A DNA stretch of 64,000 bases, from the NCBI RefSeq assembly GCF_020463795.1, contig NZ_CP080025.1, forward strand, positions 2,973,501 through 3,037,500, in the 5' to 3' direction. Numbering within the stretch: the stretch's first letter is position 1; each line of letters starts with the position of its first letter. The notes below the pieces were generated by a model, which did no database searches, was not told the origin of the DNA, and was given only the letters and a program-made list of their open reading frames with translations. Shown one piece after another: positions 26,304 through 41,147 of this stretch. This DNA is from Echinicola marina. GTDB lineage: Bacteria > Bacteroidota > Bacteroidia > Cytophagales > Cyclobacteriaceae. The position numbers were made by a program, and so were the translations under genes.

Positions 26304-27893
26304 TCAAGGGTTGCTTTCAAAGCCCAGTTTTTTCAGTCCGTCTTGGATTTCTGGTGCTCCCATAAATAGCTTCCATCCTAGTCCAGAGCGGTAGTTTTCA
26401 ATCATGGCAACTATCGGTCCTTGGTCAATAGCCAAGTAACGTTTTGGATAATAGTTGTTTTCAGGACTTAATGCATCATAAAAGCCATATCGGCCAAAGA
26501 CCTTTTCTCCATAGTTATAATAAAGGTTTTTGATGACCTTTAGAGATTCCTCAGGAGTATAGGGAATGGAAGAAAGAGCCGCTGTTGGAGAAATCACACC
26601 GAGATCGGCTCCTGGACGATGGGCTGAATAGCCCTTTACAGAATAACTGGCCGTCAGCCCCCAAAGATCCTCTCCATAGCCTTTAAATTTATTGGGATTG
26701 TCCACACACCATGCACGGTTAATGAGCGTATGGTTTTTGTTTTCTTCCCAATAATTGGCATACTGGTCTGATAAGCCTTTGGGATTGAGACCCAAATAAG
26801 AGTAGTGAGCCCAGAACAAAGGACCGCCCATTTTTTCAGCGCCATTGTGTTTTAGCCGTAAGGGATGGTCATAGGCTTCCACATTGGTATTGATGCCACC
26901 ACTGCGCGCCCAGCCCTTATGGTAAGCCGAGGCAGGTATTCCGTGAGTAGGAGAGGAGGCTGCCAAAACATAGGTGATCAAACATTCATTATAACCTTCT
27001 AGGGGGAAGTTCATTTCCCACTCGTGCGTAGGGGACCAGTGCCAATAGAGGACGTCATGACCTCCTTGGGTATACCAGTCCCATTCCATTTCTTTCCAAA
27101 GCGTATCTATTCGGTTGGCCAGTGATTTTTCAGCATCATTGCCATTTTTGAAATACTCTCTGACCGCCAATAGCCCTTGCATTAGGAATGCGGATTCGAC
27201 TAAATCTCCTCCATTATCCTTGTCGCTAAATGATCTCGCTTTACCTGTTTCTCCATAAATCCAATGAGGCCAAACCCCATGGAAGCGATCAGCATTTTCC
27301 AAAAAGGTGACCATTTTATTGAATCTGTTGAGCCCCTCTTCTCTATTTATCCAACCACGATCAATGGCCGCAATGATGCCAAAGATGCCAAATCCTGTAC
27401 CTCCTGTAGTAACTACCGATTGATCATTTTGGGGATAGTCGCCATCTATGTGGATTCTTTCGGGTCCCATTCCAGATATGGGTTCTGCCCCTTCCCAAAA
27501 ATAGCGGAAGGTATAAAATTCGACCATGTCCAATAATTCTTCATCAGTGAAGTCTTTGGTAGTGGCCATTGCCAAACCTACTTCAGTGTTTTTACCGGCA
27601 TCCTGCAGGCCTACGACTTTATATTTTAAAGTGAGATTATTGCCCAGGTCATTGACGAAATCCATGTATATGGTGTCTTGTACCGTCGCTCTTTTGCTGA
27701 AACTATTGTTTTCTGTACTGACCCATATTTCATATTGGGATATTCCACTTTGTTTGGGCCAGTGGAGTTCAACGTGTCGGTCATAGCCATTTGCTTGAAC
27801 TGGACTGTCAATGGTTTTGTCCCCAGAAGAACATCCCCATAGCGAAAATCCAAGCATTAGCATTAGGTAAAATGAAAGTCTTTTTTTCTTCAT
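26304..27893 (-). CDS. Glucoamylase-like family protein, GH144-type (beta-1,2-glucanase family), lipoprotein
   Basis: A 529-aa lipoprotein (GFSLWGCSSGD, Cys21) with an FnIII-like N-terminal module (about 30-115) and an (alpha/alpha)6 catalytic domain (about 120-525). The family (Pfam glycoamylase, CAZy GH144) is known from the endo-beta-1,2-glucanase of Chitinophaga pinensis and a sophorose-releasing enzyme of Parabacteroides. Conserved stretches include FHGVWPHWI, DNGGDLVESAFLMQGLL, YWHWSPTHEWEMN and AIDQGPIVAMIENYRSGL. A second member of the same family is encoded at 31129, sharing these motifs but with other N-terminal modules. Its place beside a GH3 gene fits stepwise breakdown to glucose. 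Confidence 0.86.
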   Translation of the reverse strand: MKKKRLSFYLMLMLGFSLWGCSSGDKTIDSPVQANGYDRHVELHWPKQSGISQYEIWVSTENNSFSKRATVQDTIYMDFVNDLGNNLTLKYKVVGLQDAGKNTEVGLAMATTKDFTDEELLDMVEFYTFRYFWEGAEPISGMGPERIHIDGDYPQNDQSVVTTGGTGFGIFGIIAAIDRGWINREEGLNRFNKMVTFLENADRFHGVWPHWIYGETGKARSFSDKDNGGDLVESAFLMQGLLAVREYFKNGNDAEKSLANRIDTLWKEMEWDWYTQGGHDVLYWHWSPTHEWEMNFPLEGYNECLITYVLAASSPTHGIPASAYHKGWARSGGINTNVEAYDHPLRLKHNGAEKMGGPLFWAHYSYLGLNPKGLSDQYANYWEENKNHTLINRAWCVDNPNKFKGYGEDLWGLTASYSVKGYSAHRPGADLGVISPTAALSSIPYTPEESLKVIKNLYYNYGEKVFGRYGFYDALSPENNYYPKRYLAIDQGPIVAMIENYRSGLGWKLFMGAPEIQDGLKKLGFESNP

Positions 27894-28762: not shown

Positions 28763-31057
28763 CTACTCTGACCAATTGATTTTTGCCTTACTCAATTCTT
28801 CAGAATTGCAGCCCACCATGATTTCAAATTCCCCAGGCTCAAAAACAAAGTCGAGGTCATGGTTATAAAATTTAAGATCTTCTTTCCTTAGCTCGAATTT
28901 GATTTCTTTGCTTTCCCCGGCTTTCAAAAAGACTTTTTGAAAGCCTTTCAATTCTTTTACTGGCCGAGTTATGGTGCCCACCATATCGCGTACATAAAGT
29001 TGTACGACTTCCGCACCATCATATTGACCACTATTGGTAAGTTGGATGCTGGCAGTTAGGGATTCGTTGCCCGAAAGTTCCTTGTTGCTGATATTAAGGT
29101 CGCCATATTCGAAAGTCGTATAACTTAAGCCGTAGCCAAATGGGTAGAGCGGTTCATTGGATACATCTAGGTAATTGGAGCGGAATTTCTGGAACCACTG
29201 CCCCTCAGGAAGTGGTCGTCCAGTATTCTTATGGTTGTAGTATATAGGGATTTGACCGGTGTTTTGGGGGAATGTGGCAGTAAGCTTTCCGGAGGGATTG
29301 ACATCTCCAAAAAGTACGTCCGCTATGGCGTCTCCTGCCTCACTTCCTCCAAACCATACATTTAAGATTGCGTGGAGGTTGTCAGCTTCCCACTTAATCG
29401 CCAAGGGTCTTCCTGTAAACATTACCATGATGACGGGTTTACCAGTTTTTACCAGTTCTTGGAGCAGTCTTCTTTGGTTGGCAGGTAATTCTATATTACT
29501 TCTACTGGATGATTCTCCGCTCATTTCAGCTGATTCACCCATAGCAGCGATGATGATATCTGAATTTTTAGCTGTTTCTAGGGCTTCTTTGATCAACGCT
29601 TCTTCTGATCTATTATCTCTGTAAGTAGGTTTTCCAAACACACTTACCCTTGATTCGAGCAAAGAATCAGTCACAATATTCGCGCCTCTGGCGTGTACAA
29701 TATTGACTTGTTCACCGACGGCATTTTTGATGCCTTGCATGAGGGAAACGGATTCTTTGAACCTGCCAGCTACACTCCAAGTGCCGGTCATGTTTTCAGC
29801 ATTGTCCGCCATAGGGCCTATCAGGGCAATGGTGCCTGTTTTCTTTAATGGAAGCGTTTGATCGTCATTTTTTAGCAAGACAAAAGACTGTGCAGCAATC
29901 TCACGGGCAATTTGTCTGTTTTCTGTATTGAAGATTTCATTTTTAGCTCGTTCGGTGTCACAGTATTTGTAGGGATCATCGAAAAGACCAAGCTCAAATT
30001 TTTTCGCAAGGATCAAACGACAAGCATTATCAATTTGATCTTCTGTGATGTTACCATCTTCTAGGGAACTTTCCAAGGTGGTGAGAAAACCTTCGCCTAC
30101 CATATCCATTTCCACACCAGCTTTTAAAGCCAATGCTGACACGGCTTTCAGATCGCCCATGCCATGGTCAATCATTTCATTGATGGCGGTATAATCGGTC
30201 ACCACAAAGCCATCAAAACCCCATTGCTTGCGCAAGACATCCGTCATCAGCCATTTGTTAGCACTGGCCGGTATGCCTTCCACTTCATTGAAAGAAGTCA
30301 TGACGGTGCCGACACCCGCTTCGATGGCTGCTTGGTAGGGTTGGAAATATTCATTGTACATCCTTTGGCGACTCATGTCCACAGTATTATAGTCTCTTCC
30401 TGCCTCTGGAGCACCATAAAGGGCAAAATGCTTTACACAAGCCATGATGGTATTGTTTTTACTGAGATCATCCCCTTGGTAACCCTTAACCATGGCTTTG
30501 GCAATCTGGGCACCCAAATAGGGGTCTTCTCCGCTTCCCTCAGATACACGACCCCAGCGAGGATCCCGGCTGATGTCTGTCATGGGAGAAAAGGTCCAAT
30601 TGATGCCATCAGCACTGGCTTCCTTGGCGGCAATTTGAGCCGAGCGTTTGATCAAGTCCATGTCCCAGCTGCAGGAAAGTCCAAGTGGAATGGGAAAAAC
30701 AGTTTCGTAACCATGGATTACATCCATGCCAAATAACAAGGGGATGCCCAGTCGACTTTCTTCAACAGCCACTTGCTGCACATCTTTGATCTTTTCTACT
30801 GTTTTGATGTTAAAAAGACCGCCGACTTTTCCTGCTTTAATTTTCTCGGCAATATTGGAACTGGCAGCTTGGCCAGTAGTAAAGTCACCAGCAGCGGGGA
30901 GGTTGAGCTGACCGATTTTTTCTTCCAAGGTCATTAATGCCAAAACGGAATCTGCTCGGTGAAGATGGATGTTCTGCGGACCGTGAGAATCTTGGGATGG
31001 AGAACAGGCCATTGTCATGCCTCCAACTACCAATGCGAGGAGAATAAGGTTTTTCAT
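28763..31057 (-). CDS. GH3 beta-glucosidase (BglX type), lipoprotein
   Basis: A 764-aa family 3 glycoside hydrolase from Met at 31057, chosen because the lipoprotein signal MKNLILLALVVGGMTMACS begins there; the frame is open eight codons more. The N-terminal TIM barrel includes GIPLLFGMDVIHG and DPRWGRVSEGSGEDPYLG, and the nucleophile Asp is in GFVVTDYTAI. The middle alpha/beta sandwich has IALIGPMADN and the C-terminal FnIII-like domain begins near YGDLNISNKELSG. GH3 enzymes next to GH144 enzymes are known to split sophoro-oligosaccharides into glucose, which supports a beta-1,2-glucan substrate here. Confidence 0.93.
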   Translation of the reverse strand: MKNLILLALVVGGMTMACSPSQDSHGPQNIHLHRADSVLALMTLEEKIGQLNLPAAGDFTTGQAASSNIAEKIKAGKVGGLFNIKTVEKIKDVQQVAVEESRLGIPLLFGMDVIHGYETVFPIPLGLSCSWDMDLIKRSAQIAAKEASADGINWTFSPMTDISRDPRWGRVSEGSGEDPYLGAQIAKAMVKGYQGDDLSKNNTIMACVKHFALYGAPEAGRDYNTVDMSRQRMYNEYFQPYQAAIEAGVGTVMTSFNEVEGIPASANKWLMTDVLRKQWGFDGFVVTDYTAINEMIDHGMGDLKAVSALALKAGVEMDMVGEGFLTTLESSLEDGNITEDQIDNACRLILAKKFELGLFDDPYKYCDTERAKNEIFNTENRQIAREIAAQSFVLLKNDDQTLPLKKTGTIALIGPMADNAENMTGTWSVAGRFKESVSLMQGIKNAVGEQVNIVHARGANIVTDSLLESRVSVFGKPTYRDNRSEEALIKEALETAKNSDIIIAAMGESAEMSGESSSRSNIELPANQRRLLQELVKTGKPVIMVMFTGRPLAIKWEADNLHAILNVWFGGSEAGDAIADVLFGDVNPSGKLTATFPQNTGQIPIYYNHKNTGRPLPEGQWFQKFRSNYLDVSNEPLYPFGYGLSYTTFEYGDLNISNKELSGNESLTASIQLTNSGQYDGAEVVQLYVRDMVGTITRPVKELKGFQKVFLKAGESKEIKFELRKEDLKFYNHDLDFVFEPGEFEIMVGCNSEELSKAKINWSE

Positions 31058-31128
31058 GGTTATAGGTTTCTTTACTTCCATATCTTTATCTTACAGGCAA
31101 TATTTTGCCATATTTATAGTTTATCTAT

Positions 31129-33090
31129 TCAATAAGTGAATTCCAGTTTGTCCAGACCAGATTGGACTTCTTCATTTGTCATGAATAGGTTCCAAAGCAA
31201 TCCAGTCCGATAATTTTCAATCATTAGAATTATAGGGCCTTGATCAATGGCCAAATAACTGTCTGCATACCAGTTTTCAGTGATATTGTAGGCATCATAA
31301 AAGCCATACTCTCCCCAGATTTTATCTCCCAGCTGGTAGTAGAAATATTTCATGGCTTTCATAGAAGCCTCAGGGGTATAAGGCAAAGATGAAATAGCAG
31401 CAGTAGGTGTGATGACACCAAGATCATTGGAAGGGGAGTGCGCGCTGTAGCCACTAGGGCTATCACTGGCTGTCAGTCCCCAAGCAGTTTCGGTATAACC
31501 AACAAAACCTTTTGGGTTTTGGATGCAATATGCTTGGTTGATCAGGCTGTGGGCTTGATTCTGGTCCCAATAGTTGGCGTACTGATCGGAAAGGTTTCTG
31601 GGATCAAGCCCTAAGAAGGAATAGTGTGCAAAGAACAAAGGGCCTCCAAGATCATTGCCCAATGGTAGCTCATGTCCATAGAATGAGTTGCCGTTTTTTA
31701 TACTGCCATTTCTGGCCCAACCTGCATCATAAACAGCCTTGTCAATAGGATGTGTAGGGGATGATGCGGCAAGCACATAGACAATCAACGATTCATTATA
31801 GCCACGAATAGGGAGGTTTATTTCCCATTCATAATCGGGAGACCAGTGCCAGTAAAGTACATTGCTGTCGTTTTGGGTATACCAGTCCCATTCCACCGTT
31901 TCCCAAAGATGGGTGATTTTATCTATGAGCTCTTTTTCTTCAGGTTTGTTGGCATCGAGATAGGCCCTCACAGTGAGTATACCTTGGATCATAAAGGCTG
32001 TTTCTACCAAATCCCCTCCGTTATCTTTTGAACTGAATGGGATGGTTTTACCTGTTTCGCCATTCATCCAGTGAGGCCATACTCCATGAAAACGATCAGC
32101 GGAAGTCAGGAAATCCAGTATTTTTGTCCATCGTTCAATAGCCTGTTGCCTGGTAATAAAACCTCTTTCCACTCCTACTATGAGAGACATTACACCAAAT
32201 CCTGAACCGCCTATGGTGACGGTGTTGCCTGAACTGTTTCTTTCTCTCGCCAATCCACTCGTCGGATGGGCAAAATCCCAAAAATAACGGAATGTTTGGG
32301 ACTGTATTTTTGTGAGTAATGCATCTTCGGAAAGCAATGGGAACTTAGGCGTTTCATCTATTTGGGTATAGAAAGTACTATTAAGGCCTGCATAGTTTTC
32401 TCCGTTGATGCCTTTAAGTTGCTGATTGATTTTTAGGGAATATTTGGATAGGTACTGTAAAGGAGTTGAGACTGAAAGTGTTAATTTTTGGTTGTTATCC
32501 ATCAGCTCATACTGTAGGTTGGGGTTATCAGGACCAGTAATGGAAAAGGCGGCTTGTAGAGAAGATGGATCCAGTGGTTTGTTGAAGGTCAATTCCGTGC
32601 TAAAGTTTACAGGGACATTTTGGATTCGGCCTGTTCTAGTGGTATCACCACCTGATAATTGCACACTGGTAATTTCAACTGAGCCCAATATCGTAGTGAA
32701 CTCTATGGTGGTTTCTGTAAAATGAGCTCCGTTGGAGGCGGTTAGGGCCGAAGATATAGACAAAGTATAGTTACTACTGGTTGCTAAGGTGCCAACAGGG
32801 CTGATAATGATAGTTGTGTTGCTAATAAGGTTGGTGTTAAACTTGACCGGAATGCCTTCGGAGGATAAAGAAATGGCAGCAGATATACTTTCTCTTTGGA
32901 TAGCCTGAGAAAAGGTTAAGCTGATCGTTCTATCTATAGGAATATTATTACTGGGACCTTGTGAGTTAAGTGTTTTATCACCCACTTTGGCGTCAATCAG
33001 CTGCAAAGGTGTAATGGAACCCTCTTCTTTGCAGGAGAGGAAAAGGATAAAAAATACCAGAAAAACTGAGTGCTTCATCATTTTGGGCAT
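31129..33090 (-). CDS. GH144-type glucoamylase-like enzyme with two Ig-like modules, lipoprotein
   Basis: A 653-aa surface lipoprotein (FILFLSCKEEG, Cys20) with two bacterial Ig-like (Big_5-type) modules at about 25-130 and 135-245, followed by the same (alpha/alpha)6 catalytic domain as the protein at 26304 (about 255-650). Shared motifs are FHGVWPHWMNGETG, DNGGDLVETAFMIQGIL, YWHWSPDYEWEIN and AIDQGPIILMIENYRTGL. The long N-terminal stalk suggests an outer-surface position for first attack on the polymer, with the shorter paralogue acting later. It lies between GH3 and the LamG lipoprotein. Confidence 0.86.
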   Translation of the reverse strand: MPKMMKHSVFLVFFILFLSCKEEGSITPLQLIDAKVGDKTLNSQGPSNNIPIDRTISLTFSQAIQRESISAAISLSSEGIPVKFNTNLISNTTIIISPVGTLATSSNYTLSISSALTASNGAHFTETTIEFTTILGSVEITSVQLSGGDTTRTGRIQNVPVNFSTELTFNKPLDPSSLQAAFSITGPDNPNLQYELMDNNQKLTLSVSTPLQYLSKYSLKINQQLKGINGENYAGLNSTFYTQIDETPKFPLLSEDALLTKIQSQTFRYFWDFAHPTSGLARERNSSGNTVTIGGSGFGVMSLIVGVERGFITRQQAIERWTKILDFLTSADRFHGVWPHWMNGETGKTIPFSSKDNGGDLVETAFMIQGILTVRAYLDANKPEEKELIDKITHLWETVEWDWYTQNDSNVLYWHWSPDYEWEINLPIRGYNESLIVYVLAASSPTHPIDKAVYDAGWARNGSIKNGNSFYGHELPLGNDLGGPLFFAHYSFLGLDPRNLSDQYANYWDQNQAHSLINQAYCIQNPKGFVGYTETAWGLTASDSPSGYSAHSPSNDLGVITPTAAISSLPYTPEASMKAMKYFYYQLGDKIWGEYGFYDAYNITENWYADSYLAIDQGPIILMIENYRTGLLWNLFMTNEEVQSGLDKLEFTY

Positions 33091-33226: not shown

Positions 33227-34318
33227 TTACGGCTGTTCATTATCCATGATTGTCTGCACTTCAGATGAGGAAAGCGCTCTGTTAAAGATGCGGAGTTCAT
33301 CAATATAGCTATTGTCAGAAAGGTGTCCCCATCCAGTGAATCTAGGCGCTCCGGAGCCAATAGACAGGATGTCACAGCCCTCCCAGGAAATACCCGGATA
33401 AGTACCTTGACTCACCACTGTTCCATTGATATAAACGGTACATTCTGTTCCGGAAATCGTAAAAGCTATATGTACCCATTCATTGCTGTTCGGGTTGATA
33501 TCAGCCGCACTACCACCGTCAAACCAGTTTTCACCACTGCCATTCCCCACATTTAGTTTTATACGTTGGTTACTTCCAGCAGCCTCTCTAAAGAGTCTAA
33601 AGCCAGCAGTACGCTTGTTTTGGGCCTCAGGATTGGCTTCATCAGGCGGTCCCATGACCAATATACCCGCTCTGTTAGGATCTGCATCGACCTTGTACCA
33701 TAGGGAAGCACTGAATGCATCATTGATTAAATCAGCTGTAGGGAAGGTCAAATAGGAATCCGTTGCACCTGCGTAGGCATTGGCACCAGAAGCACTTTCA
33801 CCTGCAAAACCAGGATCCCCTACCACACTGGCTTCACTTACACTGACCAGTTCCAAATACTCGTTATCAAATGGCATATAGAAAATCTCTCCATCGTATT
33901 GAGGTACATAGAACTCTGGCTTGGAAAAGGCTACTGTGCTTGTTGTTGTTTTTCCAGATAGGTCATTGGCGGTTACAGTTAAAGTATGTTCACCATTCGT
34001 GATATTGTCATAGGGCAGTTTGACAGCTGTTCTTCTGTAATCTTTGAAATCCGAATAGCTGCCGATTTCACTGCCATCCAAGGCCACAGTGATGTCCTGA
34101 ATTTCTACATCATCTTCTACTTCAAAATCAATATTGATAGACATCACATCTTGAGGAACCCAGGTAAGTGGGCCTTCCTCAGGGAAGTTGATGTTGACCA
34201 TGGGAGCAGTTTCATCTGAGGCTGGTGGAACTTGACTGATGTCGTCTATATAACCGTCTTTACAGGCAAAACTTGTTGCCATCAAACCTGCAATAAATAT
34301 TTTAGAAGTTAATTTCAT
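33227..34318 (-). CDS. LamG-domain surface lipoprotein (SusE/SusF-like glycan-binding protein)
   Basis: A 363-aa lipoprotein (MATSFACKDG, Cys19) with an Ig-like region (about 40-130, VNINFPEEGPLTW to TTTSTVAFSKPEF) and a LamG/concanavalin-like jelly-roll domain (about 145-355, with AFSASLWYKVDADPNRAG, VHIAFTISGTECTVYINGT and YIDELRIFNRALSSSEV). The position right after SusD, where SusE/SusF-type accessory binding proteins sit, suggests it holds the polysaccharide at the cell surface. No catalytic residues are apparent. Confidence 0.82.
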   Translation of the reverse strand: MKLTSKIFIAGLMATSFACKDGYIDDISQVPPASDETAPMVNINFPEEGPLTWVPQDVMSINIDFEVEDDVEIQDITVALDGSEIGSYSDFKDYRRTAVKLPYDNITNGEHTLTVTANDLSGKTTTSTVAFSKPEFYVPQYDGEIFYMPFDNEYLELVSVSEASVVGDPGFAGESASGANAYAGATDSYLTFPTADLINDAFSASLWYKVDADPNRAGILVMGPPDEANPEAQNKRTAGFRLFREAAGSNQRIKLNVGNGSGENWFDGGSAADINPNSNEWVHIAFTISGTECTVYINGTVVSQGTYPGISWEGCDILSIGSGAPRFTGWGHLSDNSYIDELRIFNRALSSSEVQTIMDNEQP

Positions 34319-34346: not shown

Positions 34347-35888
34347 TTATTGATTACTTGCCTCTTTTAGTTGAGGAAGGATGTCTTGTTGGTCAAGTGG
34401 ATAAGGCAGGAACCTATCACCTTCATTGAAATTTCTGCTTCCATAGTTAAGTTCACTTGTGCGGTCATGCCTTACCAAGTCAAAGAAACGAACACCCCAT
34501 TCCATACCGAATTCGGCAAATTTTTCATCCAACACTTCGTCCAAAGTCACCCCACTTAGCATGCCTAGATTAGCCCTGGATCTTACAGCATTGACTGCTT
34601 CATCTGCTGACATGACATTGCTGGAGGCGCCGCTTACCAGTGCCTCTGCATGTATCAATAGGATTTCTGCGTACCGGATGGCGATCATGTTTTTATTCTC
34701 GCCATAATTAAACCTTCCAGGGGTCAACTGGGTAGTAGGCAGATAATGTTTTCCACTGAGGAACCTATACCTGGGGGCATTGCCAAAACCGTCCCCATCA
34801 GGGGTGATATTGGTAATCCAGTTAGGTAAATTGGCATAGTTTGGATCTGATTCAATATCACTGATTCCATCAGGCGTAAATAGTACGGTTGTTTCGAGAC
34901 GCTTTCGATCATTCCGGTCAAGCATAAACTTGATGTATTTTTCTGTAGGTTCCCAGAAGCCCCATCCGCCACTTGATCCAGGCACGGCGGGTTGCCAGCC
35001 TACGGCTTGAGGGCCATATACTTGCCAAGGGAATCTGTCTGAAGTACCACTTTCAGCGCCGTAATCTGAATATTGGAATTCAAGAATATTTTCATTGTTT
35101 AGCTTTCCTGGGATTTTAAATAACTGATAGTAATCAGTTTCTAGCATGAATTCTCCGCTGCTGATGATCTCTCCAGTGGCATCAACTACACCTTGGTAGT
35201 TTTCCATTTCCAGGTTGGCCAATGCTTTAATGGCTAATGCAGTGTATCGTGTGACGCCTCCTCTGATGTCCGAGCGTTGGTTAGGGTGGACATTGGGTAG
35301 ACTGGGCATGGCCTGATCCATCAAATCAGAGATATACTGCATGGTTTCATTAAATGGAGTGAGCTCTACTTCGTATAGTGCATTGGGATCAGAGCTCACG
35401 GGAATTAGGATGTTATTCCACAATCTGGCCAGCTGAAGAAGGTTGTATCCTCTCATGACATTGATTTCCGCGATGTATTGACTGGCATTTGCTGCACTTG
35501 CACCAGCTTCTTGGTATTTTTGGATCTCTTCGATGGCTCCATTCCAATAAATGATATCGGAATACATATTTAGCCATGTGGAATTATAAATCCAGAAGCT
35601 CCTGTCATAGTCATAAGTATCTGTTTTGAAAAGGGGTTCTTGGTCCCCCGCAGGGTTAGCATCATCGCCTCTGACAGAAATTAACGGAAAGGTTTCCCAC
35701 TGAAACCCATAAAGCTCTGCATAAGATCCATTAAGCAATAATATCATGTTTTGGGATTGGGAATAATCAGTTTCCTGGGCCAGGATTTGATCTTCTAAGG
35801 ATGCATCCAGGTATTCGCTACAGGAAAAGGTAGTCACTAAGCTTAATGCTGTGACCAATTTAATCAGTTTATATTCAAATATTTTCAT
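34347..35888 (-). CDS. SusD/RagB family nutrient-binding lipoprotein of the polysaccharide locus
   Basis: Surface lipoprotein of about 513 aa that captures glycan for the SusC partner. Met at 35888 was chosen since the signal MKIFEYKLIKLVTALSLVTT and lipobox FSCSEYLD (Cys23) follow directly; the frame extends 12 codons into the end of susC. Helical family stretches include AEINVMRGYNLLQLARLWNN and IRYAEILLIHAEALV, and the C-terminal FAEFGMEWGVRFFDLVRHD is typical. It starts 22 bp after susC. Confidence 0.94.
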   Translation of the reverse strand: MKIFEYKLIKLVTALSLVTTFSCSEYLDASLEDQILAQETDYSQSQNMILLLNGSYAELYGFQWETFPLISVRGDDANPAGDQEPLFKTDTYDYDRSFWIYNSTWLNMYSDIIYWNGAIEEIQKYQEAGASAANASQYIAEINVMRGYNLLQLARLWNNILIPVSSDPNALYEVELTPFNETMQYISDLMDQAMPSLPNVHPNQRSDIRGGVTRYTALAIKALANLEMENYQGVVDATGEIISSGEFMLETDYYQLFKIPGKLNNENILEFQYSDYGAESGTSDRFPWQVYGPQAVGWQPAVPGSSGGWGFWEPTEKYIKFMLDRNDRKRLETTVLFTPDGISDIESDPNYANLPNWITNITPDGDGFGNAPRYRFLSGKHYLPTTQLTPGRFNYGENKNMIAIRYAEILLIHAEALVSGASSNVMSADEAVNAVRSRANLGMLSGVTLDEVLDEKFAEFGMEWGVRFFDLVRHDRTSELNYGSRNFNEGDRFLPYPLDQQDILPQLKEASNQ

Positions 35889-35910
35889 GACTGTTCTTGG
35901 GTTATTGATT

Positions 35911-38900
35911 TTAGAACTTGACATTTAATCCCACAGTATATACAGCAGGGATAGGATAAGTCTGTCGGTCAATGCCATTATCCACTTCTGGGTTGAAACC
36001 ATTATAGTTGAAAATGGTCAATGGCCGTTCTGCTGTCAAAGTGATACGCGTTTCTGGCATGATTACTCCCATCACTTCTTTGTCAAGAAGTGAATAAGAC
36101 ATGCGCACATTTTGAACCCTAAAGAAAGAACCGTCTTCCACGAAATAATCACTGAAATTTTGGTTCCATCCTTTACGCAGTCCGGCAGCAGAAGGATATT
36201 TGTTAGAGGTGCCTTCACCTCTCCATAGATTAGTGGCCAAGTCTGCGTCAATATTGGTGTCATTAGTGAAAATCATTTCCCCTCTTTTTCTATTCAGGAT
36301 GCTGTGGCCTGATTGACCTTGGATCAGTACCGAAAAGTCAAGGTTTTTGTACCTAAAACCAAGATTGCCACCATAGGTGAGTTCTGGTAAATAAGAACCC
36401 AATACTACCCTGTCCAAATCATCGATGACTCCATCTTCATTTTGGTCTTTAAACATCAAATCTCCTGGAGCAAGGTCGTTTTCAGTTAAGAATTGCTCTG
36501 AATAACCACTATTGGTGATATCGGCTTCGGTTTGAAATACGCCTTGAACTTCGTAACCATAGAAAGCCTGGTAGGGCTGTCCCACTATGGAACGCTGACG
36601 GAATTCTGCCTGACCGGCATTGAGGTATTCAGGCCCTCCAAGTCCTCTGACCGTATTTTTTAGGGTAGCGAAGTTGCCGCCAATATAGTAGGAAAAGTCA
36701 TCAGTAACTTGGTTTTCCCAATTGAGGGACAGCTCCAAGCCTTGGTTTCTGATCTCACCAACGCTTCTTCTCACCGCACCTCTGAACAGGGGTTGCAGAA
36801 CGGTTACAGCCAGACTTTGTGTGTTCCTTATATAGTAATCAGCTTCTAGGGACAGTCTGTTTTGAAAGAACTTGGCCGTCAGACCAAAGTTGGTTTCTTC
36901 CGTAGTCTCGATTTTATCGATTAGGTCATAAGTGGGGTCCAGCCTAAAGCCTGGAATTCGCACATCATTGATGGCGTGGTTGGTTCCCTGTAGGGTGGGC
37001 TGACCCACAGATGGGCTGATACCATCATTACCAAGCTGTCCCCATGACGCTCTTAACTTAAGAAAATCGATGCCTTTCACATCAAAGAAATCCTCTTCGG
37101 TCGCTACCCAGCCTGCTCCAAGGGTAAAGAAATCTTCACTATCCACTTGGAACTTGTTATAATTGTCCTGACGGTAGGTAGCATAAAGCAAGTATTTTTC
37201 TTTGTAGTTATAGGCTAACCTGCCAAAGAAAGAGAGGTAAAATATGCGACTACCGGCATCTGAGACCGTATTGATATCATTGGCCTGTCCATTGTTCAGA
37301 TACCATAGCTCTTCATTACCAAATGTAGGATTAGGGTCCAAATCATTTCTGTTTCCACTGAGCTGTTCAAAGGTCTCACTTCTGAAGGATTGTCCCAGTG
37401 TGGCAGTTATACCGTGGTCACCAAAGAATTCCTTATACGTAAGATAATTGTCCACAATCTGGTCAAAATACAAGCTGCTAGATCTAGAAAGGCTAGAAAG
37501 AGGATTAAGGACACCGTCATTATAGGCGAAATTGACATTTCTGGCATTGATTAAATCTAACTTATAGTTATAAGCAGACCTAAAGGTCAATTTATCAGGG
37601 ATAAAAGTCAGCTCGGCATGGAGATTCCCGTTGATTTTATTGACTTTATTTCTGCTGTCATTATAGAGAAGTGGGTAGAAAGGGTTTTGTCTTCCCCTAT
37701 AGCCCAGTCTTTGAGCATTGGACAATGCTACCGGTGATGTGCCAAAATCTTCATCGTATTTAGGAAGAATAGGTACCGCAAAGTAGGCGTTAAACCAAGC
37801 CGCATCTGATCCTACATATTGTTTGGCTGTACTGAAGGTGAAATTACCGCCCACAGTGATCCATTCTTTGACTTTAGAGTCGATATTGGCGCGGATGTTT
37901 ACCCTTTCATATTCGTTTCTGGTCTCGTTAAGCAGTCCATCCTGTTTGAAATAACTGCCTCCAATGGAATAGCGTGTTTTGGTACTACCACCAGAGAACG
38001 TCAAGGTATGGTTTTGGATAGCAGCAGGGCTCATGATCTCATCGTACCAGTCCGTGTTTACGGCAGGAATACTTGGATCTATACGGCTCCTTCCATAGGC
38101 CTGCATGGCATTGTCAATGAATTCCATGTCTGGTGCTGACCCTGTTTCATTGATGTATTGCACAAATTGCTGGCTATTGGCCATTTTGAGGACGTTTTGT
38201 GGGTTTTGTACCCCGTAGTATCCATCATAGACAATTTCAGCTTCTTGTTCATATTCACCTGAGTTGGTCTCTATCAGTACGACGCCATTGGAAGCCCTTG
38301 CACCATAGATAGCAGATGCAGAAGCATCTTTTAGTACAGAAAGGGTCTTGATATCATTGGAGTTGAGGAAGTCAATATTGTCAAAGAACATACCGTCCAC
38401 GACGTATAAAGGGGCTCCACCTCCTTCAAAGGAACCTATACCCCTTACTCTTACTGTGGGAGAGGCTCCTGGTGCGCCTTTACTGACGATTTGTACCCCG
38501 GCTACCTTCCCTTGGAGAGATTGCATGGCGTTCGAGCTCGGCGTTTTGACCAGGTCCTCTGTTTTCAAGGTGGTAATCGCAGAGGTCATTTCCTTTTCTT
38601 TTTGCGCACCATAACCGATGACAACTACTTCATCGAGTCCAGTTAGTTCTTCTTGAAGGGTGATGTCAAGCTGAGTCCTTCCATTTAGCTCAACGAGCCT
38701 TGATTCAAAACCAATAAAAGAAAAGTTTAATGTCGCATCTGGAGAGCTGACTGTAATCGAATACTTACCGTCTAAATCAGTGACGGTTCCATTTGTGGTA
38801 CCCTGTTCTAGAATGTTTACCCCAGGTATGGGTTCACCTCCTTGATCAAGTACTGTTCCTGTAACATTGGTGTCCTGAGCGGCAGCTGTACTGAGGGTGA

Positions 38901-38994
38901 CCGCAAAGACTAATAGCAACACCATGGATAGTTTTCCTAGTTGAGGGATTTTGGGTTTCCATGATTCCTTACTTATGCGTAAAGACTTAATCAT
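35911..38994 (-). CDS. SusC/RagA family TonB-linked outer membrane transporter of the polysaccharide locus
   Basis: A 1,027-aa TonB-dependent transporter for oligosaccharides. A signal peptide (LSMVLLLVFAVTLSTAAAQ) is followed at once by a carboxypeptidase-regulatory-like domain (VTGTVLDQGGEPIPGVNILE), the SusC mark DEVVVIGYGAQ, a plug domain (VRVRGIGSFEGGGAPLYVVDG) and a barrel to the C-terminal VGLNVKF. It has no STN domain, unlike the SusC at 6653, so it is not expected to signal through FecR. Instead a membrane regulator gene lies directly upstream at 39264. It is the first gene of the locus. Confidence 0.95.
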   Translation of the reverse strand: MIKSLRISKESWKPKIPQLGKLSMVLLLVFAVTLSTAAAQDTNVTGTVLDQGGEPIPGVNILEQGTTNGTVTDLDGKYSITVSSPDATLNFSFIGFESRLVELNGRTQLDITLQEELTGLDEVVVIGYGAQKEKEMTSAITTLKTEDLVKTPSSNAMQSLQGKVAGVQIVSKGAPGASPTVRVRGIGSFEGGGAPLYVVDGMFFDNIDFLNSNDIKTLSVLKDASASAIYGARASNGVVLIETNSGEYEQEAEIVYDGYYGVQNPQNVLKMANSQQFVQYINETGSAPDMEFIDNAMQAYGRSRIDPSIPAVNTDWYDEIMSPAAIQNHTLTFSGGSTKTRYSIGGSYFKQDGLLNETRNEYERVNIRANIDSKVKEWITVGGNFTFSTAKQYVGSDAAWFNAYFAVPILPKYDEDFGTSPVALSNAQRLGYRGRQNPFYPLLYNDSRNKVNKINGNLHAELTFIPDKLTFRSAYNYKLDLINARNVNFAYNDGVLNPLSSLSRSSSLYFDQIVDNYLTYKEFFGDHGITATLGQSFRSETFEQLSGNRNDLDPNPTFGNEELWYLNNGQANDINTVSDAGSRIFYLSFFGRLAYNYKEKYLLYATYRQDNYNKFQVDSEDFFTLGAGWVATEEDFFDVKGIDFLKLRASWGQLGNDGISPSVGQPTLQGTNHAINDVRIPGFRLDPTYDLIDKIETTEETNFGLTAKFFQNRLSLEADYYIRNTQSLAVTVLQPLFRGAVRRSVGEIRNQGLELSLNWENQVTDDFSYYIGGNFATLKNTVRGLGGPEYLNAGQAEFRQRSIVGQPYQAFYGYEVQGVFQTEADITNSGYSEQFLTENDLAPGDLMFKDQNEDGVIDDLDRVVLGSYLPELTYGGNLGFRYKNLDFSVLIQGQSGHSILNRKRGEMIFTNDTNIDADLATNLWRGEGTSNKYPSAAGLRKGWNQNFSDYFVEDGSFFRVQNVRMSYSLLDKEVMGVIMPETRITLTAERPLTIFNYNGFNPEVDNGIDRQTYPIPAVYTVGLNVKF

Positions 38995-39029: not shown

Positions 39030-39057
39030 TCAAACGTTTGCATTTTTGCTCGTTTGA
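39030..39057. promoter_or_regulatory. Repeated CAAACG/CGTTTG sites upstream of susC
   Basis: A perfect 10-bp palindrome CAAACGTTTG (39031-39040) and a further CGTTTGA (39051-39057), in inverted order to TCAAACG (39030-39036), lie 36-63 bp before the susC start. They are candidates for the binding site of the regulator encoded at 39264 or of another locus regulator. This is inference from symmetry and position. Confidence 0.45.
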
Positions 39058-39263
39058 GACTGAAAAGGTAGAGGAAAGAAGAAAAAACTACGTTAAAAAA
39101 TGTAAAATCTTGGCTGTTTGACTAGGGGTTAGGGCGGATAAATTAGACTGTAATTAGCGGTTTAATACCATGTGAAAATGGCTTATTTTAGCTTTTTAAG
39201 CATTTTTACAGTTTAGCGTCACGCTATAATACTATTAGGGGATTTAATGGAGGATTATAAGGC

Positions 39264-41147
39264 TTACTTCGACTTTTCTTTCTCTTCCTCCATCATCAAG
39301 ATGTCATACCAGTGAGGAGATTCCAACTGTAAGGCTTCAATGTTTTGCTTGGTTTTCTTTCTGAAGTTCCAAACTGTATTTTTACGAATATCCAAAAGTT
39401 CTGATAGCTGTTCTAAGGTTTGTTTTTCAGTATTGGCAATAATATCGTAAGCGATATAAAAGGCCTTTTCCAAGGGGAATTTTACTCCATGAAAGATAGT
39501 GCCTGCGGTTACCGAGTCAATATGGCCGCAACGGCTACATCTGCGGGTGAAGAGTTTTGGCCCTTTGGAGCTTTTGGTGTATTTGCAGTTTCTGCATATG
39601 AAGCCATTGCCCCATTTGAATTCTTCTAGGTGCCTTAAACAAGCGGATTGGTCTGGGAAGATACGTTGAAATTCGTCATAGGAGAGCAACTGGTTCGTTA
39701 ATCTGGCCTGAAAAGAAGCCTTGATACTGCTTTTTAGCCTCCAGTTATCTTTATCCAAAAGGGAATTTATCCGTTTGATTTCTTCATCTTTTTCCATGAG
39801 TTGATGGTTATATTCTTCCAGCAAACTGTTTTTTTGTTCCAGCTCTTGGGTCCTTTCTTGGACTTTGAGTTCCAACTCCCGGTTTACTTTTTCCTTTAGG
39901 GCATAATTTACTTCTATTTGTTTTATGGTTCTTTTCAAGGCCCTGTCCCTGTTATCTTTTAATATTCTGATCCTGTCCCCCAGAGCAAATGTCAAAAGTA
40001 GCATCTCTAAAAGGAAAGCGATGTGTAGGCTATAATAAACCATGGTCATATGAGGGATAATAGCGGCATTTACCAAGACTTTTATCACCACTCCAACGAA
40101 TAATACACCATATGCAAATACAAAGAAGCGAGCAACTTTATAGCCTTGGTACCAAATGTAAATACTAGCCGTGAAAATGAAAAAGAAGGGAATAATGTCG
40201 TAATATTTGATCTCAAACAGTTTTTGGTCAAAAAACAGTCCGATAAGAAAGAGCAAAGACTTTATTCCCAAAATGGCCAACAGGGAATAATGGAGTTTGG
40301 GCGTACGGTATTTGGTGTTGAGAAATTTGATGGAAAACATAATCGCCCACAGCACAATGGAGTAATTGAAAACTCCATTGGCTATTTGGTTCCATTCAGG
40401 GTAGTTGGGCCAAAGATACTGAAAGGCTATTCCGTCTACGCACATGGCATAAATACCCACGCTGACCAAATAGAAGGAATAATAGAGGTATTTGATTTCA
40501 CGAACTGCCGCATACACTAAAAGGTTGTAAAGCCCTATGATGGCGATCATTCCATAAAAGATGCCGTAGACAAAGTATTCATTCAATGCATAGAAAATGA
40601 AGCGGTTTAAGGAGCGGATGGCAATGCGAATATCCGCTTTTTGACTGGAGCGGATTTTAACATAATAGTTAGAAATCCCTTCAGAAGCATTTTCTATGAT
40701 TATTTCAAAGTTTTTATGTCTGAAATTACGTATGCCAAAAGGAACGGCATCACCTAGGACGATTTTTTTATAATTACCATTATCTTGAGGAGCATATATT
40801 TCTACCAGGTCCATGGTTTGATCATAAAACTCCATCAACCATTTTTTGCTGCTTTCAGGGGTTTTGTCAATAGAAAGTTTTACCCAATAGGTATGGTTGA
40901 TATCGAACTTGTTCTTATTGAATGAAGGTCTGATTTTGAAATTGTCCTGAAACCTCGGTTGGATGATCTGATGGAAAGTAAGGAGATTACTGCTGTCTTC
41001 GAAGAACTCCAATTGTGATATGGAAAAAATCCTTTCCTGAAGGTTGTCATCAATTTTAAGTGTAGAACTTCCAGAGATCCTTTGGGCAGATAGCTGATGA
41101 GTGGATATAAAGGCAGATAGGAAGATGATATAAATAAGTTTTCTCAC
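39264..41147 (-). CDS. 7TMR-DISM membrane sensor fused to an IS1595-transposase-type zinc ribbon and HTH
   Basis: A 627-aa protein with a signal peptide (1-22), a periplasmic 7TMR-DISM extracellular domain (about 30-170; HTYWVKLSIDKTPESSKKWL, EIYAPQDNGNYKKI), seven predicted membrane helices (about 185-395), a coiled coil (about 395-475, ELELKVQERTQELEQKNSLL), and a cytoplasmic end that is the surprise. Residues about 504-560 form a zinc ribbon (CRNC 518-521, CSRC 537-540) followed by SVTAGTIFHGVKFPLEKAFY, the hallmark of the IS1595-type transposase zinc-binding domain, then an HTH-like segment (576-604, TLEQLSELLDIRKNTVWNFR). There is no DDE nuclease domain. It probably binds a glycan signal outside and DNA or a partner inside, controlling the adjacent polysaccharide locus; that role is inferred from position. 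Confidence 0.85.
   Translation of the reverse strand: MRKLIYIIFLSAFISTHQLSAQRISGSSTLKIDDNLQERIFSISQLEFFEDSSNLLTFHQIIQPRFQDNFKIRPSFNKNKFDINHTYWVKLSIDKTPESSKKWLMEFYDQTMDLVEIYAPQDNGNYKKIVLGDAVPFGIRNFRHKNFEIIIENASEGISNYYVKIRSSQKADIRIAIRSLNRFIFYALNEYFVYGIFYGMIAIIGLYNLLVYAAVREIKYLYYSFYLVSVGIYAMCVDGIAFQYLWPNYPEWNQIANGVFNYSIVLWAIMFSIKFLNTKYRTPKLHYSLLAILGIKSLLFLIGLFFDQKLFEIKYYDIIPFFFIFTASIYIWYQGYKVARFFVFAYGVLFVGVVIKVLVNAAIIPHMTMVYYSLHIAFLLEMLLLTFALGDRIRILKDNRDRALKRTIKQIEVNYALKEKVNRELELKVQERTQELEQKNSLLEEYNHQLMEKDEEIKRINSLLDKDNWRLKSSIKASFQARLTNQLLSYDEFQRIFPDQSACLRHLEEFKWGNGFICRNCKYTKSSKGPKLFTRRCSRCGHIDSVTAGTIFHGVKFPLEKAFYIAYDIIANTEKQTLEQLSELLDIRKNTVWNFRKKTKQNIEALQLESPHWYDILMMEEEKEKSK

Follow-up and report, generated by a model that had tools for sequence, protein, structure and literature searches.

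The Polysaccharide Locus and the Adjacent Gene

The window (i.e., the whole stretch of 64,000 nucleotides of Echinicola marina DNA that was analysed) contains a polysaccharide locus with genes for a SusC/SusD pair, a LamG protein, a GH3 glycosidase and two GH144-type enzymes and, beside it, the gene of a membrane sensor with an unusual C terminus (Table 1). Both GH144-type proteins match 5gzh, the solved structure of an endo-beta-1,2-glucanase; PMC12102758 names the Chitinophaga enzyme CpSGL as the founding member of family GH144. The locus thus combines a GH144-type enzyme with SusC and SusD, the combination by which beta-1,2-glucan utilisation loci are recognised here, and beta-1,2-glucan is its predicted substrate.

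Table 1. Genes, protein domains and candidate regulatory elements in the window (positions counted from the first nucleotide of the window).
Feature	Position	Strand	Remarks
Second GH144-type enzyme	26304..27893	-	match to 5gzh, E 6.4e-197
GH3 glycosidase	28763..31081	-	
GH144-type enzyme with Big_5 domains	31129..33090	-	PF10091; match to 5gzh, E 7.6e-164
Laminin_G_3 (LamG) domain protein	33227..34318	-	
SusD-like protein	34347..35924	-	
SusC-like TonB-dependent receptor	35911..38994	-	target operon probably begins here
TACCTTT, -7-like element	39064..39070	-	100 bp past start of site 2; conserved in Echinicola alignment
Putative operator site 2, TGGTATTAAACCGCTAAT	39153..39170	-	direct repeat; starts 64 bp past start of site 1
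Putative operator site 1, TAGTATTATAGCGTGACG	39217..39234	-	
Sensor-regulator gene	39264..41147	-	Echinicola marina; 627 aa, GTG start
Post-ribbon IS1595-type segment, HTH-like helices, residues 555-603	39339..39485	-	NF033547, alignments
IS1595-type zinc ribbon (Zn_ribbon_IS1595), residues 498-542, CxxC...CxxC	39522..39656	-	PF12760, E 2.2e-07
7TMR-DISM_7TM membrane domain, residues 190-392	39972..40580	-	PF07695, E 7.2e-47
7TMR-DISMED2 extracellular domain, residues 45-177	40617..41015	-	PF07696, E 1.2e-26

Architecture of the Sensor-Regulator

The domains of the sensor protein are arranged in the order 7TMR-DISMED2, 7TM, coiled coil, zinc ribbon and HTH-like segment. With both the 7TMR-DISM_7TM and the DISMED domain it belongs to the 7TMR-DISM receptors. 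The match to the zinc ribbon PF12760 scores 31.1 bits, above the curated cut-off of 25.4, and the cysteine pairs read CRNC (residues 518-521) and CSRC (537-540), with the IS1595-type signature SVTAGTIFHGVKFPLEKAF in the tail. Residues 555-603 align with positions 2-51 of the 215 positions of the NCBIfam IS1595 transposase model NF033547 (E 3.5e-4), a match of 20.5 bits that is far under the cut-off of that model (75), and the protein stops 24 residues further on. These two placements indicate that the C terminus of the sensor corresponds to a transposase N terminus, without the catalytic DDE part. Compared with an IS1595 transposase, the protein thus has the zinc ribbon, although at the C terminus, and lacks the DDE domain: PF12762 is not among the Pfam and NCBIfam matches listed at E<=1, a level at which the HMMER filters discard most weak matches. 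The same holds, with the same effect of the filters, for the histidine kinase, receiver and HTH_AraC domains that together define the hybrid two-component systems (HTCS) and for sigma domains; Pfam also gives neither a FecR nor a Sigma-70 domain, by which ECF sigma/FecR systems are recognised. The signal peptide, the coiled coil and the HTH were called by eye or from general knowledge, and since the zinc ribbon plus HTH-like module has no solved structural relative at E <0.15, the HTH is a prediction from sequence.

A sequence-only reading of this DNA had proposed this gene with this domain order and these cysteine and signature motifs, lacking a DDE domain and any two-component, HTH_AraC or ECF part, and the open reading frame, the Pfam domains and the matches listed at E<=1 bear it out. 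The architecture fits a one-component membrane transcription regulator; its binding to DNA is suggested by the kinship with transposases and by the repeats described below.

A Family of Sensors With a Transposase-Type Tail

The same reading treated the protein as a single oddity, which has to be revised, as sensors with a transposase-type tail form a family, of which 89 proteins were aligned and 93 regulators counted. In the genome of E. marina itself the sensor gene is accompanied by one full-length paralogue (29% identity). Members are spread over several families within the order and also occur outside it. Orthologues in three Echinicola records are 82-92% identical. Matches to the tail profile were obtained in 165 of 390 genomes of the order (E<=1e-8) and in 17 of 395 genomes of the phylum (E<=1e-20), counts that take in transposases and for which at most 11 candidates per genome were scored. 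In one genome (G131) the module stands behind Reg_prop/Y_Y_Y sensors in three proteins of 997, 1011, and 1015 aa (L172, L194, and L195); PF12760 is unreported at E<=1e-5 in two of the three, for which the family profile gives 141 and 123 bits.

Matches to the tail in the genome of E. marina include 18 further frames of IS1595 type, 17 with a length of 313-315 aa and one of 376 aa that is interrupted by stops. These frames might suggest that the fusion arose recently, through a chance insertion of an IS1595 element, and has no function. This is extremely improbable, since an orthologue was found in each of the 10 other genomes of the genus searched (71-92% identity), the sensors extend over several families of the order as well as outside it, and the four zinc cysteines are invariant across the 89 aligned sensor proteins. 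The other invariant columns in this alignment are G195, T433, L471, and K511.

The gene neighborhoods were examined in 90 stretches picked from hit lists (44 from the family to which the window belongs), plus three further regulators in G131; the 93 regulators counted are at least 450 aa long, and the Echinicola duplicates L038, L039, and L041 were excluded. The loci were chosen by hand and are related by descent, so that all of the following counts are inflated. The next gene on the same strand encodes SusC for 32 of the 93 regulators (31 of 92 without the window), the second in 6 and the third in 2, while 5 more have a divergent SusC gene at most three genes upstream. For 48 of the 93, one at a contig edge, no SusC was recognised up to the third gene, whether following on the same strand or preceding on the opposite one. 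As a control, 17 loci with 18 DISM genes that lack the zinc ribbon were examined; for none of these genes was SusC next. The gap between regulator and susC measures 196-341 bp in 27 of 31 cases. A GH144-type enzyme is encoded at most eight genes away from 28 of the 93 regulators; some members without SusC adjoin GH3 or GH9 enzymes, and no SusC was recognised among the neighbors of the three G131 proteins. The expectation that relatives of the sensor would be found near polysaccharide loci is therefore confirmed by these SusC and GH144 counts. The proposal that the regulator controls the adjacent polysaccharide locus is supported by the many members with a putative susC target beside them, while the 48 without susC speak against extending it to every member.

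Probable Transposase Origin of the Module

The module was also placed in a quick maximum likelihood tree with 118 rows and 118 columns, in which 48 of 114 inner branches are open. All 93 sensors fall in one starred branch (support 99) among IS1595-type transposases, together with three short frames, of which two (L227 and L231) are cut off by the start of their contig and the third (L080) is a stand-alone protein. The tree left out the Echinicola duplicates as well as L179, L181, and L182, which are the same genes as rows L080, L214, and L217, respectively. The transposase rows nearest to the sensor branch are ten from a single genome (G574) and L214. The latter (i.e., L181), from a genome of the same family, possesses a DDE domain by Pfam and is 42% identical to the module over residues 481-604. 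Profile and tree thus agree in placing the tail in the IS1595 family, as the sequence-only reading had it, and a placement in an unrelated family, which it named as refuting, was not found.

The tree requires four label changes, of which the starred branches force two. This fits, and does not prove, the idea that the tails of the sensors stem from one capture of a transposase. The three G131 proteins with Reg_prop/Y_Y_Y sensors fall within the sensor branch, so that the module was apparently transferred at a later stage onto a second, HTCS-type kind of sensor.

Two further observations concern the relatives of the module. Genome G574 contains eleven divergent IS1595-like frames of 306-339 aa (L078, L086, and L088-L096), which are among its closest transposase-like kin. 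In these frames the first two catalytic aspartates seem substituted, as read by eye from the sequences, and they are possibly a domesticated family. Genome G572 encodes a stand-alone zinc ribbon plus HTH-like protein of 137 aa (L179, row L080 in the tree), without a sensor and without a DDE domain.

Twin Direct Repeats Between Regulator and susC

Motif finding in 34 intergenic regions between regulator and susC yielded a candidate site with, in its final form, the consensus TGTTaTTnAAGcGtgAaA, at a log-likelihood ratio of 163.9 compared to 65.6-75.0 in six randomised sets. Intergenic regions of at least 520 bp and the duplicates L038 and L039 were excluded from the fitting; L041 was kept in the motif finding and spacing sets and omitted from the -7 count and the leave-one-out analysis. 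The sites are paired in the same orientation with their starts 64-66 bp apart: spacing scores are 59.2 for 64 bp, 58.0 for 65 bp, and 44.1 for 66 bp, the next best being 9.7 (81 bp), against a null maximum of 5.1. On leave-one-out, the best spacing within 30-109 bp was 63-66 bp for 25 of 33 regions; for the other eight it was 49, 54, 55, 76, 80, 81, 101, and 102 bp. A profile permitting multiple sites in each sequence degenerated into a run of T and was abandoned.

When both strands of 115 loci were scanned with a threshold of 19 bits, pairs were detected in 27 loci, two of which are Echinicola duplicates. Every one of these 27 loci adjoins a regulator, with the pair directed at the neighboring operon. 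In 24 of them the pair precedes susC, whereas in three (L120, L129, and L163), all outside the training set, it precedes another first gene. Over the whole scan, 28 matches were obtained at the true spacings against 20 summed over six control spacing sets of equal width. GH144 is present in 24 of the 25 non-duplicate loci with a pair, and the pair stays below threshold in 4 of 28 GH144 loci (L099, L109, L127, and L136). The pair of the window is unique in the 5.69-Mb genome, without any other place at up to three mismatches. The repeat pair was not found in most of the 48 regulators without susC, and a de novo search for twin repeats in other clades of the family gave nothing consistent except for three f19 loci (L164, L167, and L170), which carry a related repeat pair spaced 80-81 bp instead of 64-66. 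The paralogue in the genome of E. marina (L133) adjoins GH3 and GH43 genes, and the twin-repeat scan found no pair there.

The sequence TACCTTT downstream of site 2 (Table 1) is likely a -7 element; in 9 of 25 loci, a count that omits those with a pair score below 15, TAnnTTT begins 99 or 100 bp past the point where site 2 starts. This arrangement bears on the direction of regulation. The module could bind the twin repeats as a repressor or anti-activator and free the DNA upon sensing of the glycan, and the repeats as such say nothing on the sign of regulation. We consider this unlikely, because a considerable distance separates the two sites from the -7-like element downstream of them, and sites far upstream of the promoter element are more usual for activators.

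A palindrome, CAAACGTTTG, is located near susC (39031-39040 in the window) and is exact in 8 of 11 Echinicola rows, disregarding row L015, which was misplaced in the alignment; we take it to resemble a LacI-type site. A derivation of the operator from the ends of IS1595 elements is unsupported though not disproved. When the 18-bp profile was run over the flanks of 20 IS1595-type loci (21 frames), the best scores were mostly below the 95th percentile of their own randomised sequences, with two exceptions (L089, 9.7 vs. 8.6, and L092, 8.6 vs. 7.0) and no common place, and the inverted repeats of the elements in the genome of E. marina itself have, by eye, only short words in common with the operator.

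GH144 Loci Outside the Training Set

Of 148 genomes belonging to the taxonomic family of E. marina, 87 contain GH144. Twenty GH144 loci were taken from genomes outside the motif training, and the pair was scored at most 500 bp from susC with spacings of 60-69 bp allowed. Eight loci with a regulator on the same strand beside susC score 17.2, 29.1, 29.1, 21.0, 21.0, 27.4, 27.0, and 31.7 bits, all with a spacing of 64 or 65 bp and all except the first above the 19-bit threshold. The nine loci without a regulator in the stretch, by contrast, all score between -3.4 and 9.3 bits. One of the searched loci (L247) gave a match of 19.2 bits over the whole locus, which is located ca. 2 kb from susC and was read as chance, its best score within 500 bp being 4.4. 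Two loci with a divergent regulator score 10.2 and 8.5 bits, although L163, where the regulator is also divergent, does carry the pair. The remaining locus, L258, has no regulator in the stretch and a pair of 29.0 bits; its genome (G286) has a regulator elsewhere (L100). For another genome in which the regulator lies away from the operon (G316), the stretch that was fetched, L264, was without susC.

Five of the nine genomes of the regulator-less loci (G011, G022, G025, G035, and G036) were searched for a regulator elsewhere, and no match spanning the tail was obtained; the match in G025 ends at residue 510, in a frame without a zinc ribbon by profile. In all five regulator-less GH144 loci tested (L244, L248, L249, L254, and L257), FecR adjoins susC, preceded by a gene with a sigma-70 domain in two, a gene without a match in two and a signal peptidase in one.

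This distribution should be taken into account when considering whether the tail is instead a protein-interaction or zinc/redox module, with the repeats bound by another factor that travels with the gene. Zinc ribbons often bind proteins, and the conserved palindrome near susC, exact in 8 of 11 Echinicola rows, points to an additional regulator. However, the repeats track the regulator gene and not the SusCD-GH144 operon, apparently even in trans (L258 and L100), and the tail is akin to a transposase N terminus, which makes this explanation improbable. That a captured transposase module works as a one-piece regulator, as was proposed from the sequence, has gained support from this kinship and from twin repeats that, in loci outside the training set, are present with the regulator and absent where it is not nearby, and it stays an interpretation of these data.

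Proposed Mechanism

A one-component regulator is what kinship, position and co-occurrence all suggest. We propose, with a probability of roughly 0.7, that the protein is a transposase-derived one-component membrane regulator that attaches to the twin repeats by its tail and switches on the susC-susD-GH144(-GH3) operon. The periplasmic 7TMR-DISMED2 domain would sense a glycan, probably a beta-1,2-gluco-oligosaccharide, and the signal would reach the cytoplasmic module via the seven helices and then the coiled coil of what is probably a dimer. This zinc ribbon plus HTH-like module, presumably a descendant of an IS1595-type transposase without the catalytic DDE part, would bind the two direct repeats 64-66 bp apart (approximately six helical turns) upstream of the susC promoter and, once bound, would activate rather than repress the operon.

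For the family as a whole, it seems fairly probable that we are dealing with a family of membrane transcription factors, not met in the literature searched, that arose by a single IS1595 capture. Its module would afterwards have been transferred to a sensor of HTCS type, and the family would have established itself at beta-1,2-glucan loci, in the slot otherwise held by FecR, where it would read the twin direct repeats. Other clades of the family would then read different sites.

Comparison With Known Systems

The sensor and membrane halves of the protein are clearly shared with the 7TMR-DISM receptors (PF07695/PF07696), for which kinases, cyclases, GGDEF, and PP2C domains are the known outputs, whereas here a zinc ribbon of transposase type and an HTH-like segment take this place. 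A DNA-binding domain behind sensory domains has a parallel in the ChiS family: according to PMC8092284, the ChiS-family DNA-binding domain of proteobacteria follows sensory domains as the C-terminal part of the protein, with 7TMR-DISM among the architectures given, and ChiS binds two sites at its target promoter. Such ChiS-type receptors in print provide a precedent for direct binding of DNA by 7TMR-DISM receptors. The ChiS-family domain, however, is proteobacterial and not derived from a transposase, and by its description in PMC8092284 as a helix-sheet-helix domain it appears unrelated to the module. The signalling-helix paper (PMC1592074) mentions 7TMR-DISM; the words zinc, ribbon and transposase do not occur in it. 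In the open-access literature searched, on which the claim of novelty rests, neither a 7TMR-DISM or 7TM protein with a transposase zinc ribbon nor an IS1595 zinc-ribbon regulator was found, and this kind of regulator of polysaccharide utilisation loci (PULs) was not met.

With IS1595-family transposases (PF12760 plus PF12762, NF033547) the sensor has the zinc ribbon and the next segment in common, but it is without DDE, fused to a receptor and often fixed beside susC. The HTCS of the PULs of Bacteroidota are likewise single membrane proteins that connect a periplasmic sensor to DNA, and the G131 relatives even combine an HTCS-type Reg_prop/Y_Y_Y sensor with the module; matches to histidine kinase, receiver and HTH_AraC are, however, missing from the window protein. 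The ECF-sigma/FecR and SusR regulators of PULs occupy the same slot upstream of susC, where FecR is found in the five regulator-less loci tested, but the domains of ECF-sigma/FecR systems differ from those of the sensor protein, as do those of SusR. Depending on the genome, this type of operon has either the sensor-regulator or FecR as its neighbor. If our reading is true, the family offers a defined candidate operator and, in beta-1,2-gluco-oligosaccharides, a candidate inducer.

Fusion of transposase DNA-binding domains to host proteins has given rise to transcription factors in eukaryotes. The case described here differs in being bacterial, membrane-embedded and coupled to a sensor and, if true, it would represent a bacterial transposase capture that made a transcription factor, tied to a membrane sensor, across many genera.
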